A stretch of 45,709 nucleotides of DNA from the IMG/VR virus record IMGVR_UViG_3300025889_000205, positions 1-45,709 of that record; one strand, given 5' to 3'. The DNA comes from a virus. The notes under the pieces are model-generated. The model was not told where the DNA came from and made no database searches. It worked only from the letters and a program-made list of their open reading frames with translations. A program made the translations under genes and the position numbers. How positions within the stretch are numbered: position 1 is the first letter of the stretch; the number at the start of each line of letters is the position of its first letter. Positions 2,695 to 19,432 of the stretch are shown piece by piece.

Positions 2695-3521
2695 CGCTTC
2701 AGGGAGGCCGGGTCTATGTCGTCGAAGGCGCTCCCGACCACGGCGCCGAGGTGGGCCGCGCGGGCTTCGGCGCTCTCGGCGGCGCGTGCGAAGCGCTCCG
2801 CCTCGGCACGGGCGCGCACCTCCGCGTTGATGGGGAGCGCGATCCACCAGCCGGTGCCCTTGATCTCCAGCCACCGCTGCGTCACCGGGGCACGCTCCGG
2901 GACCGTGTAGGTGGACGTGAAGCCGTCCACCGAACCGCCCGCGTCGACCGCTTCCGCCGCGGCGCGCGTCGCCTCCGGGTCGTCGGCCACAAACGCGTCG
3001 TACGGCTGCGACGTCAGTTCCTCGTAGGTGCGGTTCCAGACCTCGCACGCGGCGGCGTTGACGTCCTCGTAGGTCGCGCCCACGATCTCGCGGCCAGGGG
3101 CGATGTAGACGGCCGGGATGGGCAGGGCCTCGATGATGGCCCGTGATGCCGCCTCGGCGGCGTCGGCGCGGACGGCCTCGGCCTCGCGCTGCCCGTCGGC
3201 GGTGCAGATGCCCCAGAAGATGCGGTAATGGAACTCCGCGCCAATCAGGCCGAGCGTGGAGAGGATCAGGAACGCCTCGGTGCCGATGCGGGTGGCGACG
3301 GCGGGCGCCCAGACAGCGGCAAGGGCCGCGAGGAGGTAGCCGGAGACGCCACAGAGGGCGAACACGGCCGTCATGGAGACGGCGAAGCGGCCTGCGTTGG
3401 AGCGGTAGCCCTGCGCGCGGGCGCGGGCGTACTCGTAGGCCGCACGCCCGGCAACGACCATGTAGAGCACCGTGACGATGACGTGCTCGATGGCGAGCGC
3501 GAGGGAGGTGTCGTGGTTCAC
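2691..3521 (-). CDS. Membrane protein with PAS domain in the lysis cassette
   Basis: 276 aa from the GTG at 3521, chosen because it overlaps the endolysin stop as GTGA, the spacing used repeatedly in this genome; GTG 3527 would add two residues. Residues about 8-30, 45-70 and 80-103 are three hydrophobic spans. A charged helical linker leads to a PAS-like fold at about 130-245 (AIIEALPIPAVYIAPGRE; the YEDVNAAACEVWNRTYEEL helices; TQRWLEIKGTGWWIALPIN strands). A helical Ala/Glu tail follows. It has no kinase, cyclase or HTH output domain. Its position between endolysin and holin suggests it senses or tunes lysis; that role is inference. Confidence 0.8.
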   Translation of the reverse strand: MNHDTSLALAIEHVIVTVLYMVVAGRAAYEYARARAQGYRSNAGRFAVSMTAVFALCGVSGYLLAALAAVWAPAVATRIGTEAFLILSTLGLIGAEFHYRIFWGICTADGQREAEAVRADAAEAASRAIIEALPIPAVYIAPGREIVGATYEDVNAAACEVWNRTYEELTSQPYDAFVADDPEATRAAAEAVDAGGSVDGFTSTYTVPERAPVTQRWLEIKGTGWWIALPINAEVRARAEAERFARAAESAEARAAHLGAVVGSAFDDIDPASLKR

Positions 3522-6917: not shown

Positions 6918-7136
6918 ATGTCCAACCCCAGCTTTCTTTCGCCCGACGATGTGGCTGCCCGTTTGGGCCTTCACGTCGACTCGGTACGTCGCCTCTGCCG
7001 TAAAGGCGAGATCCCCCACCGCAAGATCGGGGGCCGGATCTACATCGCGCCGGACGCGATTACGCCGCCTGCCGATGCACCCGTGGATTCGTCCACCCCC
7101 GCCCCGGCGGACAGCACGGAGGAGGTGACGGCATGA
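6918..7136 (+). CDS. Excisionase/MerR-type helix-turn-helix protein
   Basis: 72 aa from ATG 6918. LSPDDVAARLGLHVDSVRR forms the helix-turn-helix and CRKGEIPHRKIGGRIYIA the wing, the pattern of the excisionase (Xis)/HTH_17 family. The tail is Pro/Ala-rich. First gene of the early rightward operon; its stop overlaps the next start (ATGA). With no integrase in the genome it is more likely a transcriptional regulator than a recombination directionality factor. Confidence 0.8.
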   Translation: MSNPSFLSPDDVAARLGLHVDSVRRLCRKGEIPHRKIGGRIYIAPDAITPPADAPVDSSTPAPADSTEEVTA

Positions 7137-8995
7137 GCACCCTCGCCACGATGGCCCGCCGCCGCGAGGCGATGGCCGACGCCCTCGACTACCCGCCCTC
7201 CTGCGAGGTCTGCGGCTCCGACTGCACCATGACCGCGCCGGGCGACGGCTTCGAGGAGGGGCCGACCTGGGCTTGCCTGGAGTGCGTCGCCAAGCCCATC
7301 GTGGTCGTCTGGTTCTCCTGCGGTGCCGCCTCTGCGGTCGCGGCCAAGCTCGCCGTGGACACGCTCTCGGACCGCTACGAGGTCCGCGTCGTGAACACCC
7401 CCGTGGACGAGGAGGACGAGGACAACCGCCGGTTCCTCGGCGACGTGGAGACGTGGATCGGCCAGCCCATCGAGATCGCCACCAACCCGGACTTCCCCAG
7501 CCAGTCGGCCGTCGACGTGTGGGAGGCTCGGCGCTACATGAGCGGAGTTGCCGGTGCGCCCTGCACGCAGATCCTGAAGAAGGGCGCACGCTACGCCTAC
7601 GAGGACGCACACGAGATCGCTTACCACGTCCTCGGCTTCACGGCTGACGAGACGCACCGGCACGAGCGGTTCACGCTGACGGAGCGGTCGAACGTGCTGC
7701 CCCTCCTGATCGAGGCGGGCTACACCAAGACGGACTGCGCGCGGGTCCTCATGGATGCCGGGATCGACCTGCCTCGGATCTACGAGCACCTCGCCAACGC
7801 CAACTGCTTTACTGGGCGGACCACGTTCGTCACATCCGACGGCCCGCGCGCCTTCGCCGACGCCGTGGGCGAGACGGTCCAAGTGGTTACCCGTGCCGGG
7901 CTTGCCAATGCCATCGTTCGCTCCTTCGGGGAGCAGGAGATCGTGGACCTGACCGTGGAGCGGAACGGCGTCCGGGAGACGATCGAGACCACGGCGGGGC
8001 ATGCTTGGATCGCCCCTCGATACAGGTCGATGGCACAGGGTGAGGTCATCCTGTCCACGGTGGACCTGCCCATCGGCAAGACACTTCCCGCTGGCTACGT
8101 GCTGTCCGAGAACGCTGCCGGCGAGACGCTAGACGAGGATGGCATCCGCCACGGGTTCGTGTTCGGCGACGGCTCGCTCTACAACACAGAGCGGCAGCCG
8201 ATTGCCAGGGCGAACATCGTCCGAGAGAAGTCCTGCATGCTCCGCTTCTTCAGCGGCTACAAGCTGGCGGGCAACGAGCGGGTGCGGACCGTCCACGGGC
8301 TGCCGGCGGAGTGGAAGATGCTCCCTTCACCGCTCGCTGGGCGGACCTACATGCTTGGCTTCATCGCTGGGCTGATTGCATCTGACGGGTGCGCCGTCAA
8401 GGGAGGAGTCTCCATCTCGAACGAGTCGCCAGAGACGGCGGAGGCCATTGCGGACATCTGCCGCTCCCAAGGTCTGTACGTCGCCTCGGTCAAGCACGCG
8501 ACCCGCGACACCAACTACAAGAAGGGGGCCCGTCTGTCAACGGTGTTGCTGTCCAGCGCGGCCCTTCGGCCGGAATGGCTTCTGCGTCCCTTCCACCAAG
8601 AGAGGTTCAGCGCCAAGACGACACGCCCGAAGGGCTATCGCGTCGTCTCCATTCGGCCTACTGGCCGTGTCGAACCCGTCTACTGCGTCACCGTCCCGGA
8701 GCACCACGAGTTCACGCTCGGCAATGGCCTGCTAACCCGGAACTGCTGGGGTTGCGTCAAGGCCGAGAGCCCGACCTACTGGAACACGGTTCGGCGCATT
8801 CGGCCGGACGTGTTCGAGGCGCGCGCCACCCAGTCGCGCGACATCGGGGCAAGGCTCGTGAAGTGGCGCGGCGAACGGCTGTTCCTGGACGAACTGCCTA
8901 CCCACGCGATGGGTCGCCCCCTGAACACCCTGGACTTCTCCTGTGGCCTGTTCTGCGAGGAGCACGCGCCCGAGCCTGACTGCGAGGTCGCGTGA
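7133..8995 (+). CDS. PP-loop (PAPS-reductase-like) protein interrupted by an intein
   Basis: 620 aa precursor; a Shine-Dalgarno-like GGAGGAGGT precedes the ATG. The exteins (residues 1-224 and 538-620, 307 aa after splicing) match the phage PAPS-reductase/adenine-nucleotide alpha-hydrolase family: the PP-loop is VVVWFSCGAASAVAAKLA (58-74), then GAPCTQILKK (141-150), the C-terminal NCWGCVKAES cluster and SCGLFCEE. An upstream CxxC pair (24-51) may bind metal. The substrate of these phage enzymes is unknown; they are relatives of sulfonucleotide reductases and DndC-type thio-modification proteins. The intein splits the CxxC motif at Cys538, so splicing is required to make the active site. Confidence 0.88.
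   Translation: MSTLATMARRREAMADALDYPPSCEVCGSDCTMTAPGDGFEEGPTWACLECVAKPIVVVWFSCGAASAVAAKLAVDTLSDRYEVRVVNTPVDEEDEDNRRFLGDVETWIGQPIEIATNPDFPSQSAVDVWEARRYMSGVAGAPCTQILKKGARYAYEDAHEIAYHVLGFTADETHRHERFTLTERSNVLPLLIEAGYTKTDCARVLMDAGIDLPRIYEHLANANCFTGRTTFVTSDGPRAFADAVGETVQVVTRAGLANAIVRSFGEQEIVDLTVERNGVRETIETTAGHAWIAPRYRSMAQGEVILSTVDLPIGKTLPAGYVLSENAAGETLDEDGIRHGFVFGDGSLYNTERQPIARANIVREKSCMLRFFSGYKLAGNERVRTVHGLPAEWKMLPSPLAGRTYMLGFIAGLIASDGCAVKGGVSISNESPETAEAIADICRSQGLYVASVKHATRDTNYKKGARLSTVLLSSAALRPEWLLRPFHQERFSAKTTRPKGYRVVSIRPTGRVEPVYCVTVPEHHEFTLGNGLLTRNCWGCVKAESPTYWNTVRRIRPDVFEARATQSRDIGARLVKWRGERLFLDELPTHAMGRPLNTLDFSCGLFCEEHAPEPDCEVA
7805..8743 (+). mobile_element. Intein with LAGLIDADG homing endonuclease domain
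   Basis: Residues 225-537 (313 aa) of the precursor. It begins CFTGRTTFVTSDGPRAF (block A, Cys1). Block B is TTAGHAW (His290). Two dodecapeptide motifs follow: HGFVFGDGSL (about 340-349, Asp346) and LGFIAGLIASDG (408-419, Asp418). The end is VYCVTVPEHHEFTLGNGLL with TRN before Cys+1. All splicing nucleophiles are present; the penultimate residue is Arg instead of the usual His. Both endonuclease acidic residues are intact, so the element may still home. Confidence 0.9.
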
Positions 8996-10972: not shown

Positions 10973-11983
10973 ATGAGCAAGATCAAAGAGCGCCCGATCC
11001 TCTTCAACGCCGAGATGGTCCGCGCGATCCTCAACGGCTCCAAGACGCAGACCCGGCGACCCGTCAAGCCGCAGCCGCCCGAAGGCGTGGTCTGGTACGG
11101 CGGAGATGGCCGCGACCTCACGCACGACGGGGAGCCATGCTTCACCTTCATGCCGGAAGCCGACTCGCACCCGGACGACTGGCAGATCCTCCGCTCTCCC
11201 TACGGCGCCCCCGGCGACCGGCTCATCCCCGCCATTCTCATTGAGGGGTACGACGTGCGCTACTGCGCGGACGTGTTTGGCCACATCTGGTCGAAGTCCT
11301 CAGGCGAGTGGCGACGGATGCGGAGCAATGAAACGGCAGGGTACCAGCGGCTCACCCTGCGCCTCGGGGGCCAGGACGTGAACCGTACCGTCCACGGCCT
11401 CGTCTGCCGGGCCTACTATGGTGACCCGAGTGAGGGAATGGTGGTGCGCCACCTGAACGGCGATTCGCAGAACAACGCACCCGAGAACCTTGACTGGGGG
11501 ACGTACTCTCAAAACTGGGCCGACAGGAAAGCCCACGGCAACGGAGTAGGGTGCGATCACCACAACGCCAAGATCACAATGGCCGACGCGGAGGCTATGC
11601 GTGCCTCGGGCAAAACTGCATGGGCCCTGTCAAAGGAGTACCCGCTGAGTCCCAAGAGCATCGCCAACATCCTCAGCGGCAAGACGTGGATATTGAAGCC
11701 TGAGCAGCCAGCCCCGAACATGCCCCGCTGGGCCTCCCGGCTGACGCTGGAGGTCACAGAGGTGCGCGTGGAGCGCGTGGAGGAGATCACCCCGGGAGAC
11801 TGTCTCGAAGAGGGCCTAGAGCCGTGCTATCCCGACGCCGCGCACGGTGACCCCATTGGGTTCGCAGCCGACGGGCTGGTCGCCAACTACCTCGATCTGT
11901 ACGAGTCGATCTACGGCACCCGCGAAGGGTGGGCCTGGGCCATCTCGTTCCGCGTGATCCCGCAGGGGGAGGTGCAGTCGTGA
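10973..11983 (+). CDS. ASCH-type phage protein with in-frame HNH homing nuclease insertion
   Basis: 336 aa; good ribosome site (GGAGGAGGT) before the ATG. The outer parts are one family: residues 1-84 (RPILFNAEMVRAILNGSKTQ-TRRP, ending YGAPGDRL) and about 246-336 (MPRWASRLTLEVTEVRVERV, then YGTREGWAWAISFRVI) are the ends of the phage ASCH-like proteins, a fold thought to bind RNA or modified bases. Between them, about 86-245, is a complete HNH homing nuclease. The WVRETW-type middle of the family, normally after GDRL, is gone. Whether the fusion keeps either activity is unknown. Confidence 0.85.
   Translation: MSKIKERPILFNAEMVRAILNGSKTQTRRPVKPQPPEGVVWYGGDGRDLTHDGEPCFTFMPEADSHPDDWQILRSPYGAPGDRLIPAILIEGYDVRYCADVFGHIWSKSSGEWRRMRSNETAGYQRLTLRLGGQDVNRTVHGLVCRAYYGDPSEGMVVRHLNGDSQNNAPENLDWGTYSQNWADRKAHGNGVGCDHHNAKITMADAEAMRASGKTAWALSKEYPLSPKSIANILSGKTWILKPEQPAPNMPRWASRLTLEVTEVRVERVEEITPGDCLEEGLEPCYPDAAHGDPIGFAADGLVANYLDLYESIYGTREGWAWAISFRVIPQGEVQS
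11228..11707 (+). mobile_element. HNH homing endonuclease insertion
   Basis: Residues about 86-245 of the host protein. The N-terminal part (EGYDVRYCADVFGHIWSK) is the NUMOD4-like strand pair. The HNH core is VHGLVCRAYYG, VVRHLNGDSQNNAPENLDW, then a second N-containing helix. NAKITMADAEAMRASGKTA and SPKSIANILSGKTW form the DNA-recognition helix-turn-helix of such nucleases. It has no stop codon at either side, so it is translated as part of the ASCH-type protein. The boundaries are inferred from family memory and are good to about 10 residues. Confidence 0.82.
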
Positions 11984-12945: not shown

Positions 12946-13172
12946 CAGACGACACCAAGTACCCACACCTCATCCCCGAAGCCCACCGCCTCCGCGGACG
13001 GGGGCAGACGTTCTACCAGATCGGGAAGGCCCTCCACGTGGACCTCAAGACGGCCGAGAAGCTGACCCGCCTCCCGGTGCCCGCCAACCCGCGCCCGCCG
13101 CTGGGGCGAGGCCAGGTGCTCTATGCCCTGCACTCGATGGACCCGGAGGGATACCCCGTCTACGCCCTCTGA
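12942..13172 (+). CDS. Small helix-turn-helix protein, 76 aa
   Basis: LIPEAHRLRGRGQTFYQIGK and ALHVDLKTAEKLTRLP form a resolvase/MarR-like helix-turn-helix: a repeat-trigger helix, turn and recognition helix. A Pro-rich linker and a short C-terminus follow. It directly precedes the NinB-like gene. Likely a DNA-binding regulator of the early region. Confidence 0.68.
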   Translation: MTDDTKYPHLIPEAHRLRGRGQTFYQIGKALHVDLKTAEKLTRLPVPANPRPPLGRGQVLYALHSMDPEGYPVYAL

Positions 13173-13176
13173 GCCG

Positions 13177-13626
13177 ATGGCCCGTCCTCTCGAACTACCA
13201 GCAACCCTCGACGCAGACGGGCGCCTCCCCAGCCGGGAGCGCGCCCGTCTGCGTGGCTTCCTCCGCTCGCGGGCCGGGCAGGAGGTCGTGATCAAGGTGT
13301 CCGGCCCGAAACGCTCGACGTCCGCGAATGCCTACTACTGGGGCGTCGTGATCCCGGCGTTTCAGCTCGCCCTGACGGACGACGGCAACCCGCTGACGCC
13401 AGAGGCGATCCACTACCACTTCAAGTGCGAGTACCTGCGCCCGCAGGTGTTCGAGCTGGACGGAGTGACGCACACGATTCCGGGGAGCACGGCGACGCTG
13501 GACCGGGAGGAGTTCACGGACTACCTGTGGTCGATCCGAACGGGTGACCTGGCGATGCGGCTCGGCGTGGAGTTCCCGGACCCGGACGGGGTGTGGCGGT
13601 CCTACAAAGTCGAGGACCGGGTATGA
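13177..13626 (+). CDS. ninB: NinB-like recombination protein
   Basis: 149 aa from ATG 13177 (CCGATG context). GPKRSTSANAYYWGVVIPAF, then TPEAIHYHFKCEYLRP, STATLDREEFTDYLWSIR and LGVEFPDPD follow the NinB/Orf family pattern (KRS..QNAYYW, H..LK..FL, ST..L...EF..Y...I, G..IPDP). Lambda Orf/NinB binds single-stranded DNA and assists RecA-type or Red recombination. It ends the first early segment and faces the minus-strand operon tail to tail. Confidence 0.82.
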   Translation: MARPLELPATLDADGRLPSRERARLRGFLRSRAGQEVVIKVSGPKRSTSANAYYWGVVIPAFQLALTDDGNPLTPEAIHYHFKCEYLRPQVFELDGVTHTIPGSTATLDREEFTDYLWSIRTGDLAMRLGVEFPDPDGVWRSYKVEDRV

Positions 13627-14660: not shown

Positions 14661-14945
14661 CTAGGTGTCCTTCCGGGGATCGACGATCCGAGACAGGCCC
14701 TCCTCCACCCGGAACGGGGTGAACGCCTCGATGATGCCCCGGCGGATCTTGGCGTACTTCGCCGTGGGCGGGTCCTCAGTGAGGGCGTGCGTGATCGCGG
14801 GCGGGCTCACCTCCAGGCGGCGCGCGGCCTCCGCACGGCTGTTGTCGCCGAGGGCTTCGAGGGCCTGCGCGTTGAGCGCGGCGTGATCGACGATCTGGCC
14901 GTGGTGCACGCGAGAGGAGCGGCGGCGGGAGAGGACAGCGGGCAT
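14661..14945 (-). CDS. Cro/CI-type repressor candidate, 94 aa
   Basis: SRAEAARRLEVSPPAITHAL is a clear helix-turn-helix (residues about 37-56) followed by a helical C-terminus (YAKIRRGIIEAFTPFRVEEG). The basic N-terminus (SRRRSSR) may add DNA contacts. It is divergent from the replication gene across a 114-base spacer with four GGTCAA-type boxes, the arrangement of lambdoid repressor/operator regions. It could act as the switch for replication genes. Confidence 0.74.
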   Translation of the reverse strand: MPAVLSRRRSSRVHHGQIVDHAALNAQALEALGDNSRAEAARRLEVSPPAITHALTEDPPTAKYAKIRRGIIEAFTPFRVEEGLSRIVDPRKDT

Positions 14946-14971
14946 GGCAAGATCGGCGAGGTGTGTGCTCC

Positions 14972-15056
14972 GGTCAATTTACCGCAGCGGTCAACAAAAG
15001 TTGCAGGGCCGGGACCCTTTACCCGGCAGGTCAAGTATATTAACCCAGCGGATCAA
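14972..15056. promoter_or_regulatory. Divergent promoter/operator with GGTCAA repeats
   Basis: GGTCAA occurs at 14972, 14989 and 15029, with a variant GGATCAA at 15050. The boxes form two larger copies of GGTCAA...ACC-CAGCGG-TCAAC (14972-14995 and 15029-15057). A -10-like TATATT (15036-15041) lies inside the second copy, 24 bases before the GTG of the replication gene. The stretch is markedly AT-richer than its surroundings. Confidence 0.55.
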
Positions 15057-15059
15057 CCC

Positions 15060-15947
15060 GTGAATGACGCCCCGAGCCCCCAGATGCTTCACTCGTTCGA
15101 TGCCGACATGGCGGCCCGATACGGAATCGCGGAGGCGGTGCTCATTCAGCACCTCGCCTTCTGGATCGGCAAGAACATGGACGCAGGCCGACACGACCAC
15201 GACGGGCGCACCTGGACCTACAACACGGTCAAGGGCTTCGCGGACCTGTACCCCTACCTCAGCGAGAAGCAGGTGCGCCGGGTGCTCGACAAGCTGGAGT
15301 CCGAGGGCGTGGTCGTGACCGGCAACTACAACAAGTCGGGCATGGATCGGACGCTCTGGTATGCGTTTGCGGACGATTTCGCCCATTTGCCCAAACGGGC
15401 AAATGCATCTGACCAAACGGGCAACTCCATTCGCCCAAACGGGCAAATGCATTCGACCACGCGGGCAAATGCATTTGCCCATACGGGCAGACCTATACCA
15501 GATAGAAACCCAGATGGAAGCACTCAGATGGAAACCACAGATCCTCTCCCGGCTGACGCCGGGACGGCGGATGGGGGAGGGGGTGCTGCGGTGGTGAAGG
15601 TGGACGCGACGCCCTACGCCGAGATCATCGACCACCTCAACGACCTGTGCGGGACGGGCTACCGCCCCACCTCCAAGAAGACCCAGACCCTGATCCGCGC
15701 CCGGATCGCCGAGGGCTACACCGTGGACGACTTCCGCACCGTCCACCGCAAGAAGGCCCGCGAGTGGTTGGGCACCGACCGTGCCCAGTACCTCCGCCCC
15801 GAAACGCTCTACAGCCCCAAGTTCGAATCCTACCTCCATGCCCCAGAACCGACCCAGCCCGCCGCCTCACGCCACAGCGTTGACGCGGACCCCAACGCCA
15901 ACTTCCAGCGCCTCGCAAGCGCCGGGCTCCGTGGCATCACGAGCTAG
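15060..15947 (+). CDS. Phage replication initiator (winged helix plus phg_2220-type C-terminal domain)
   Basis: 295 aa from GTG 15060; ATG 15084 is the alternative. Residues about 8-105 are a winged-helix domain (YGIAEAVLIQHLAFWIGKN; YNTVKGFADLYPYLSEKQVR; LDKLESEGVVVTGNYNKSG) of the DnaD-like replication proteins. A disordered linker follows, encoded by the iteron DNA. Residues about 185-265 are the conserved phage C-terminal domain (YAEIIDHLNDLCGTGYRPTS; TLIRARIAEGYTVDDFRTV; YLRPETLYSPKFESYL). It should bind the origin and load host replication machinery, as lambda O does. Confidence 0.88.
   Translation: MNDAPSPQMLHSFDADMAARYGIAEAVLIQHLAFWIGKNMDAGRHDHDGRTWTYNTVKGFADLYPYLSEKQVRRVLDKLESEGVVVTGNYNKSGMDRTLWYAFADDFAHLPKRANASDQTGNSIRPNGQMHSTTRANAFAHTGRPIPDRNPDGSTQMETTDPLPADAGTADGGGGAAVVKVDATPYAEIIDHLNDLCGTGYRPTSKKTQTLIRARIAEGYTVDDFRTVHRKKAREWLGTDRAQYLRPETLYSPKFESYLHAPEPTQPAASRHSVDADPNANFQRLASAGLRGITS
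15387..15496 (+). repeat. Five 22-bp iterons: probable replication origin
   Basis: Direct repeats at 15387, 15409, 15431, 15453 and 15475 (the last degenerate). The consensus is NNG-(C/A)CCAAACGGGCAAATGCAT. Most units contain the palindrome GCCC-N4-GGGC, perfect as TTTGCCC/GGGCAAA in unit 1. The 22-bp period is not a multiple of three, so the repeats are read in changing frames and are not conserved for protein. An AT-richer stretch (15491-15545) follows. This is the layout of lambda ori inside gene O. Confidence 0.85.
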
Positions 15948-16482
15948 CGGCCTCCCGTCCATCCTCGACACCGAGGCATGGGGCGCACCCGCTGAGGCCG
16001 TCGCGGTCGCCGCGGCCGTTGGCGAAGTCCTCGCCTTCGTGGAGCCCACCGCGACGGACGGACGCGCCGCGATGGTCACCCGCGCGATCTCGCAGCGGGG
16101 CTACTCGGCTCCTGAGATCGAGCTGATCAAGCGCGAGGCGCCCTTCGCCAACCACTACGGGCCGCACGTCCGCCTGGACGTGATCGACAAGATCGTGAAC
16201 GACCACCGGGCGGTCCGCGCCATGCTCGCCCGGCCGCTGTCTGGAGACGATGTGGCGGCGGTCTGCACGCTGGACCCTGCCCTCTCGCCTGACGACTTCG
16301 CCTGCACCGGGTTCGACTCCCGGAACAACCCCCTGTGGCGCTACGCGCCTGCCGTCGCCGCGAGCGCACGGGACCGGGGCATCGTGGCGACACCCGAGAT
16401 GCCCGACGCCGTGGGCCGACAGGAAGGCCCCGTCACCCTCCACCTGATTCCGGGCAACGGAGCCCAGGACGCCGCCGCCTGA
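15838..16482 (+). CDS. Hypothetical protein after the initiator; helicase-loader position
   Basis: 214 aa from ATG 15838, overlapping the initiator by 110 bases; GTG 15931 (overlap 17 bases) would remove a Pro/Thr-rich leader and is equally plausible. The body is helical (APAEAVAVAAAVGEVLAFVE; GYSAPEIELIKREAPFANHY; LDVIDKIVNDHRAVRAMLA). No Walker motif is present, so it is not a DnaC-type ATPase. Genes in this place in lambdoid phages load the host helicase (lambda P); that role is only positional inference here. Confidence 0.66.
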   Translation: MPQNRPSPPPHATALTRTPTPTSSASQAPGSVASRASGLPSILDTEAWGAPAEAVAVAAAVGEVLAFVEPTATDGRAAMVTRAISQRGYSAPEIELIKREAPFANHYGPHVRLDVIDKIVNDHRAVRAMLARPLSGDDVAAVCTLDPALSPDDFACTGFDSRNNPLWRYAPAVAASARDRGIVATPEMPDAVGRQEGPVTLHLIPGNGAQDAAA

Positions 16483-18800: not shown

Positions 18801-19052
18801 ATGCCCGACGTATCGCACATCCTCGACGCCCGCGACCGGGGTAAACTGACCTGCCAGAACTGCCTTTTCTGGGAACCCAACCTTGGCCCGGACGGGTGGG
18901 GGGAGTGCCGGGCTTCCCTGCCTGCCTTCCACCCGAACGTCACCGAGGAGGAGATGGGAGGGTACTCCGTCTCGGACCGGTTCATTGGGCACTTCCCGAT
19001 GACGACGGGGACCGAAGACTGGTGCGCCCACTTCATCGAGGACCCGTCGTGA
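18801..19052 (+). CDS. Small Cys-rich protein, 83 aa
   Basis: LTCQNCLFWEPNLGPDGWGE-C and W-C-AHF place four Cys in CxxC...C...C order, a likely zinc or iron site, typical of a small phage family with WxGECR-like centres. The stop overlaps the next GTG. Function unknown. Confidence 0.68.
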   Translation: MPDVSHILDARDRGKLTCQNCLFWEPNLGPDGWGECRASLPAFHPNVTEEEMGGYSVSDRFIGHFPMTTGTEDWCAHFIEDPS

Positions 19053-19432
19053 AGCGCTCCGGCCCCATCAAGCGCAAGACCCCGCTGGAGCGAGGCAAGC
19101 CGATGAAGCGCACCGGCTGGAAGCGGACGGCCAACGGCGCCGCGACCACCCGCCGCGCGCCCATCAAGCCCGTCTCGAAGAAGCGCCAGGCCGAACAGCG
19201 CGAGCGCGTCAAGATGCTCAAGGCGGAGACCGGAGGCGTGCCTGTCGCCTGCGAGCGGTGCGACGCCGCCGAGGCCAACGACGCTCACGAGATCGTGCCC
19301 CGCTCGGCAGGAGGCTCTATCACGGACCGCGAGAACGTGGTCTTCCTCTGTCGTCCCTGCCACCGCTGGATAGGAGACAACCCCGCACAGGCGATGGCCG
19401 ACGGCTGGCTCGCCCGCCCCGACACCCCGTAG
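19049..19432 (+). CDS. HNH endonuclease-type protein, 127 aa
   Basis: GTG 19049 (GTGA overlap). The basic N-terminus RSGPIKRKTPLERGKPMKR is typical of phage HNH/NinG-like proteins. CERCDAAEANDAHEIVPRSA, then DRENVVFLCRPCHRWIGDNP supplies CxxC, the HE/H of the HNH core, the N of the second helix and CxxCH. Such small nucleases act in DNA packaging or recombination; the operon position favours the latter. Confidence 0.82.
   Translation: MKRSGPIKRKTPLERGKPMKRTGWKRTANGAATTRRAPIKPVSKKRQAEQRERVKMLKAETGGVPVACERCDAAEANDAHEIVPRSAGGSITDRENVVFLCRPCHRWIGDNPAQAMADGWLARPDTP

Follow-up and report, generated by a model that had tools for sequence, protein, structure and literature searches.

A probable replication origin of iterons and a low-GC element inside the initiator gene of a phage

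The logic by which an origin of replication is embedded in the gene of the protein that reads it is already known from lambda O, SPP1 oriL and pSK41 RepA, and the phage considered here adds another member. In pSK41, Rep boxes bound by the N-terminal winged helix of RepA lie in the middle of the rep gene, the origin encodes the linker of the protein and the C-terminal domain (CTD) is a separate module; in the natural chimaera pPR9, a single block made up of the N-terminal domain (NTD) and the origin has been replaced by a phage-like counterpart (PMC5703833). The replisome organiser of SPP1, gp38, binds direct repeats beside an AT-rich unwinding element at oriL, within gene 38 (PMC6316719). In lambda, tandem palindromic iterons with an A-rich centre occupy nt 348-433 of O, with an AT-rich stretch adjoining them (PMC7466680).

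The window analysed here is a stretch of 45,709 nucleotides (positions 1 to 45,709 of IMG/VR virus record IMGVR_UViG_3300025889_000205), and its initiator gene has the same anatomy as that of pSK41. The iteron array lies at nt 324-433 of the gene, almost the same place as in lambda, again with an A-rich centre and an adjoining AT-rich stretch (Table 1). A preliminary description of this DNA had proposed that the repeats are origin iterons within the part of the initiator gene that encodes the linker, and our sequence comparisons support it: with a probability of about 0.85, the array and the low-GC stretch next to it are the replication origin of the phage, embedded in its initiator gene. Each parallel also has its differences. 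pSK41 is a plasmid, not a phage, and the window initiator departs from RepA in its Phg_2220_C CTD; SPP1, likened here by gene layout, differs in having two origins and in encoding a loader and a helicase itself; and lambda carries a loader gene, P, next door, whereas the window phage has no recognisable one. Homologous initiators of phrog_428 and phrog_11233 are found in Burkholderia phage BcepMigl (gp22), Staphylococcus phage vB_G30_01 and Lactobacillus phage mv4 (ORF 292), and initiators of these families have in-gene iterons and 12-bp repeats as in the window. In many such phages the next gene encodes a DnaC-like loader or a helicase (among relatives, an ORF with a Walker A motif stands there in 43 of 86), whereas the window has none.

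Table 1. Features of the initiator locus, in coordinates of the window
Feature	Position	Strand	Remarks
Divergent control region upstream of initiator	14946-15059	.	three operator-like repeats; putative function
Operator-like repeats TTTACCGCAGCGGTCAA, TTTACCCGGCAGGTCAA, TTAACCCAGCGG	14978-14994, 15018-15034, 15040-15051		
Replication initiator gene	15060-15947	+	295 aa from GTG 15060; phrog_428 and PF09524 matches
Iteron array, five 22-bp copies	15383-15492	.	unit palindrome CATTTGCCC-AAAC-GGGCAAATG
Conserved post-iteron word CCTATACCAGATA	15492-15504 (approximate limits)	+	CC[AT]ATACCA in relatives; weight matrix
Likely DNA unwinding element	15498-15545	+	four CAGA(T) units; low GC
ORF after initiator	15781-16482	+	start overlaps initiator; no family match, no Walker A

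The initiator matches phrog_428 ('replication initiation protein', E 1.5e-47) and phrog_11233 (E 1.4e-33), with weak matches to the O-like PHROGs 345 and 678, and its NTD, homologous by sequence, places it among the phrog_428-type phage replication initiators. ATG 15084 is a likelier start codon than GTG 15060, because gp22 of BcepMigl, to which the N-terminus is 53% identical, starts there in the alignment. In the AlphaFold2 model a confident winged-helix NTD (residues about 10-107) is followed by a low-confidence linker (about 108-180, below 50 at 121-126 and 133-176), which we read as disordered, and then by a helical C-terminal domain, again modelled with confidence (about 185-262). Of these parts, only the linker is encoded by the array and the stretch behind it. 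The CTD is Phg_2220_C (PF09524 / TIGR02220), with scores above both curated cut-offs (E 6.4e-23 and 81.1 bits against a cut-off of 27 for PF09524; 90.1 bits against 66.65 for TIGR02220). In the earlier label 'DnaD/phg_2220-like', 'DnaD' goes back to PHROG names only; a DnaD-like fold was rejected for the CTD, whose model found no match below E 3.5 among PDB structures.

The locus had also been described as following lambda O/ori logic with an unrelated initiator. The initiators do appear unrelated: alignment of the NTD with lambda O (a single sequence) by hhalign returned a probability of 0.3%, no detectable homology, and homology of the NTD was rejected both for lambda O and for the O protein of HK022 (P22 gp18-like). 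As described systems go, RepA and SPP1 gp38/oriL are the better-matched counterparts. When the whole model was used in a fold search (Foldseek), the top match was the NTD of RepA, a weak one (E 0.007, TM 0.53 on the target), for which the related structures are 4pql, 4pt7 and 5kbj; the model thus hints weakly at RepA, not lambda O, as the nearest fold. Membership of RepA_N, suggested by a first PDB profile search, was rejected when neither a broader alignment nor the window protein by itself reproduced the match, which had probably come in via one distant alignment row (L018). Pfam RepA_N had no match in the 84 members scanned (E 0.01), and the window protein alone had no credible match among PDB sequences.

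The iteron repeats are real and far beyond chance. When the whole window was simulated 100 times with a first-order Markov model, no lag-22 self-match scored above 15, whereas the best in the real sequence reaches 52; the in-gene repeat score exceeds those of all synonymous-codon shuffles and all codon-order shuffles (100 each). Tandem Repeats Finder reports 15384-15489 with period 22 and 4.8 copies. The preliminary description had placed the five direct repeats at 15387-15496, 4 bp out of register: the copies start at 15383, 15405, 15427, 15449 and 15471, at a spacing of 22 bp. It had further given GCCC-N4-GGGC as the palindrome of most copies, which is exact in three of the five (copies 1, 3 and 5) and forms part of a fuller palindrome of 9+4+9. 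In copies 2 and 4 the left half reads GACC, the right-side GGGCA is present in all five, and this alternation of weaker copies gives the array a weak super-period of 44 bp.

Behind the array lies a second set of repeats that the earlier account had missed, consisting of CCTATACCAGATA and four CAGAT units. The sequence straight after the last iteron is CCTATACCAGATAGAAACCCAGATGGAAGCACTCAGATGGAAACCACAGATCC, and the CAGA(T) units begin at 15499, 15511, 15525 and 15538, with spacings of 12, 14 and 13 bp that are not codon-phased; four CAGAT in this stretch arose in only one of 2000 synonymous shuffles. The stretch sits within a 60-mer that ties for the lowest GC in the record; the record has 70% GC, a background against which a low-GC element stands out clearly, and by its composition and repeats it is likely a DNA unwinding element. 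A weight matrix built from 40 other relatives scores CCTATACCAGATA higher than anywhere else in the window, at 33.7, the next best site reaching 6.1.

The same layout recurs in the family. Relatives were drawn from 251 loci and clustered at 75% identity to 97 non-redundant representative proteins, and the lag score of each gene was compared with synonymous-codon and codon-order shuffles. Significant in-gene repeats are present in 66 of the 97, whereas the same procedure applied to control ORFs from the same loci gave one in 77. Lag 22 scores best in 43 relatives and lag 23 in 11 (54 of 97 together), with the repeats mostly right behind the NTD-coding part. The window gene conforms to other phrog_428-type initiators in both parts of the layout, having 21-24 bp iterons directly behind the NTD-coding part and the CC[AT]ATACCA word with CAGA 12-mers behind the last iteron. 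In the linker DNA of relatives, the arms of the iterons are quite different and the layout is alike, CC[AT]ATACCA and 12-mers of the ACAGA type often following; the spacing between CAGA units peaks at 12, with 11, 13 and 14 also occurring. Near relatives (L195, L201, L216) have closely similar palindromes, with the outer arms CATTTG...CAAATG as in the window.

About one third of the relatives have no significant repeat by the lag score, but the post-iteron word and palindromes that have diverged can still be made out in many of these. A genuine exception seems to be L212, which has kept the NTD and the word but apparently has no iterons. At the expected place of the iterons in L212 (about 3290-3480), the coding sequence resembles a domain of T5orf172/GIY-YIG type, possibly a nuclease domain inside the origin gene; T5orf172 matched one of the 84 members scanned, presumably this one. 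In Butyrivibrio virus Ceridwen (L011, 2504-3591), the annotation splits the initiator into two neighbouring genes, its N- and C-terminal halves, and 24-bp repeats lie in the second of them.

The post-iteron word occurs in the genes of 41 of the 97 relatives, where synonymous shuffling predicts 3.5, and on the sense strand in all but one opposite-strand case. It falls in reading frames 0, 1 and 2 in 28, 12 and 1 genes, encoding the peptides PIP, TNTR/TYTR and NQYH respectively, and its presence in all three frames implies that it is kept as DNA and not as peptide. This bears on whether the repeats might be a by-product of a repetitive, disordered linker or of RNA structure, with no role as an origin. 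The linker is indeed disordered in the model, and the transcript of the array (15383-15490) is predicted to fold very strongly (z -5.05), with hairpins inside the coding region of the initiator mRNA; such hairpins arise automatically from DNA palindromes, however, and no terminator-like site is present. A period of 22 also shifts the reading frame at each copy, synonymous shuffles destroy the repeat, and the word keeps to no single frame, all of which makes a by-product extremely unlikely. The earlier argument that the repeats are kept for DNA and not for protein, 22 being no multiple of three, is upheld by the shuffles and by these three frames.

Since relatives combine the two conserved domains differently, they indicate with which of them the origin goes. 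Both domains are shared with the window initiator by 27 relatives, the NTD with an unrelated C-terminus by 41 and the CTD with an unrelated N-terminus by 15, at cut-offs (NTD identity 0.22, CTD 0.28) that were picked on the same data. A best lag of 22 or 23 is found in 20 of 27, 24 of 41 and 0 of 15 of these groups, and the post-iteron word in 19 of 27, 17 of 41 and 0 of 15; the sequences are related, so that these are given as counts, not as independent events with formal probabilities. Among relatives sharing the NTD overall, the word is present in 36 of 68 and lag 22 or 23 in 44 of 68, and the loss of repeats from relatives that keep the protein, which the preliminary description had named as the outcome that would speak against it, is therefore mostly not what is seen. 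The correlation of iteron similarity with NTD identity is weak (rho 0.22), and with CTD identity there is none (-0.08). On the sequences of these relatives, the two-part layout goes with the NTD and not with the CTD. A shared DNA-binding domain joined to differing C-termini amounts to a clean natural experiment, and it points to the NTD as the reader of the origin. The same association weighs against the array being a partition site, a centromere to which a segregation protein binds. Iteron arrays occur as centromeres too, and winged helices of the TubR type are among the weak fold matches, but the array tracks the initiator NTD across phages and adjoins an element of melting type, and the proteins scanned, a non-exhaustive set, include no partition ATPase; we consider partition the least probable of the alternatives.

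The array could also be an operator, at which the initiator or a repressor shuts off its own or downstream genes while the origin lies elsewhere. Autoregulation is common among initiators, and tandem palindromic sites would suit a repressor equally well. Against this, the array sits over 300 bp into the gene, away from any recognisable promoter, and 14900-16000 contains no promoter-like site (a weak test); the intergenic region already has operator-like repeats, of different sequence; the iteron motif does not recur elsewhere in the record above chance; and relatives conserve a low-GC element behind the array. An operator function in place of an origin is thus very unlikely.

The intergenic region itself, together with an ORF on the opposite strand (14661-14945, 94 aa) that resembles a small helix-turn-helix repressor and matches no family, could, judging by sequence, be a lysogeny switch. 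Downstream, the ORF that overlaps the end of the initiator was rejected as a relative of helicase loaders, since it matched no family and the fetched loci contained no relative of it. The phage had been said to have no helicase of its own, and in agreement the record, which may be incomplete, yielded neither a recognisable DnaB-type helicase nor a recognisable DnaC-type loader. Genes of HNH endonuclease type (10973-11983 and 18896-19432) flank the replication region, a NinB-like gene lies at 13123-13626, and the early region encodes a 620-aa protein (7133-8995, + strand) with a match of phosphoadenosine phosphosulfate reductase type (phrog_424, 1e-33). A search for a direct terminal repeat of the record found none, leaving the circular genome of the preliminary description unsupported, and the GC-skew check it had suggested is uninformative for the origin because skew follows gene direction.

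If the array and the adjoining stretch are the origin, dimers of the NTD winged helix would bind the five palindromic iterons, which would set them about two helical turns apart and allow them to stack into one complex beside 15490-15545. Strand opening would begin in this easily melted stretch, and the initiator, or else a factor from the host, would probably hold one strand of its CAGAT/12-mer repeats in single-stranded form. The flexible linker, encoded by the origin DNA itself, would then allow the Phg_2220_C domain to bring in the helicase machinery of the host, a role proposed because neither a helicase nor a loader is recognisable in the record. Winged-helix Rep proteins of plasmids bind one strand of the 13-mers in their unwinding element (PMC4081077), and by analogy with them we tentatively suggest, as a possibility somewhat short of even odds, that CCWATACCAGAKA and the 12-bp ACAGAKA repeats may be a single-strand recognition element common to phages of very different hosts and read by the iteron-binding NTD; NTD, iterons and element might then form a portable origin cassette, shuffled between C-terminal domains that recruit helicases. 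The swap of NTD and origin in pPR9 resembles this modularity across the phage initiator family.

We found neither a family-wide post-iteron element nor the linkage of NTD and origin described in the open literature, which is thin on older phage papers, and both the element, conserved across reading frames, and the clear linkage may be new. For a large family of phages, origins would be locatable from sequence alone, and the post-iteron word, kept in three frames, is a candidate for a site that is recognised by its sequence where phage origins melt.
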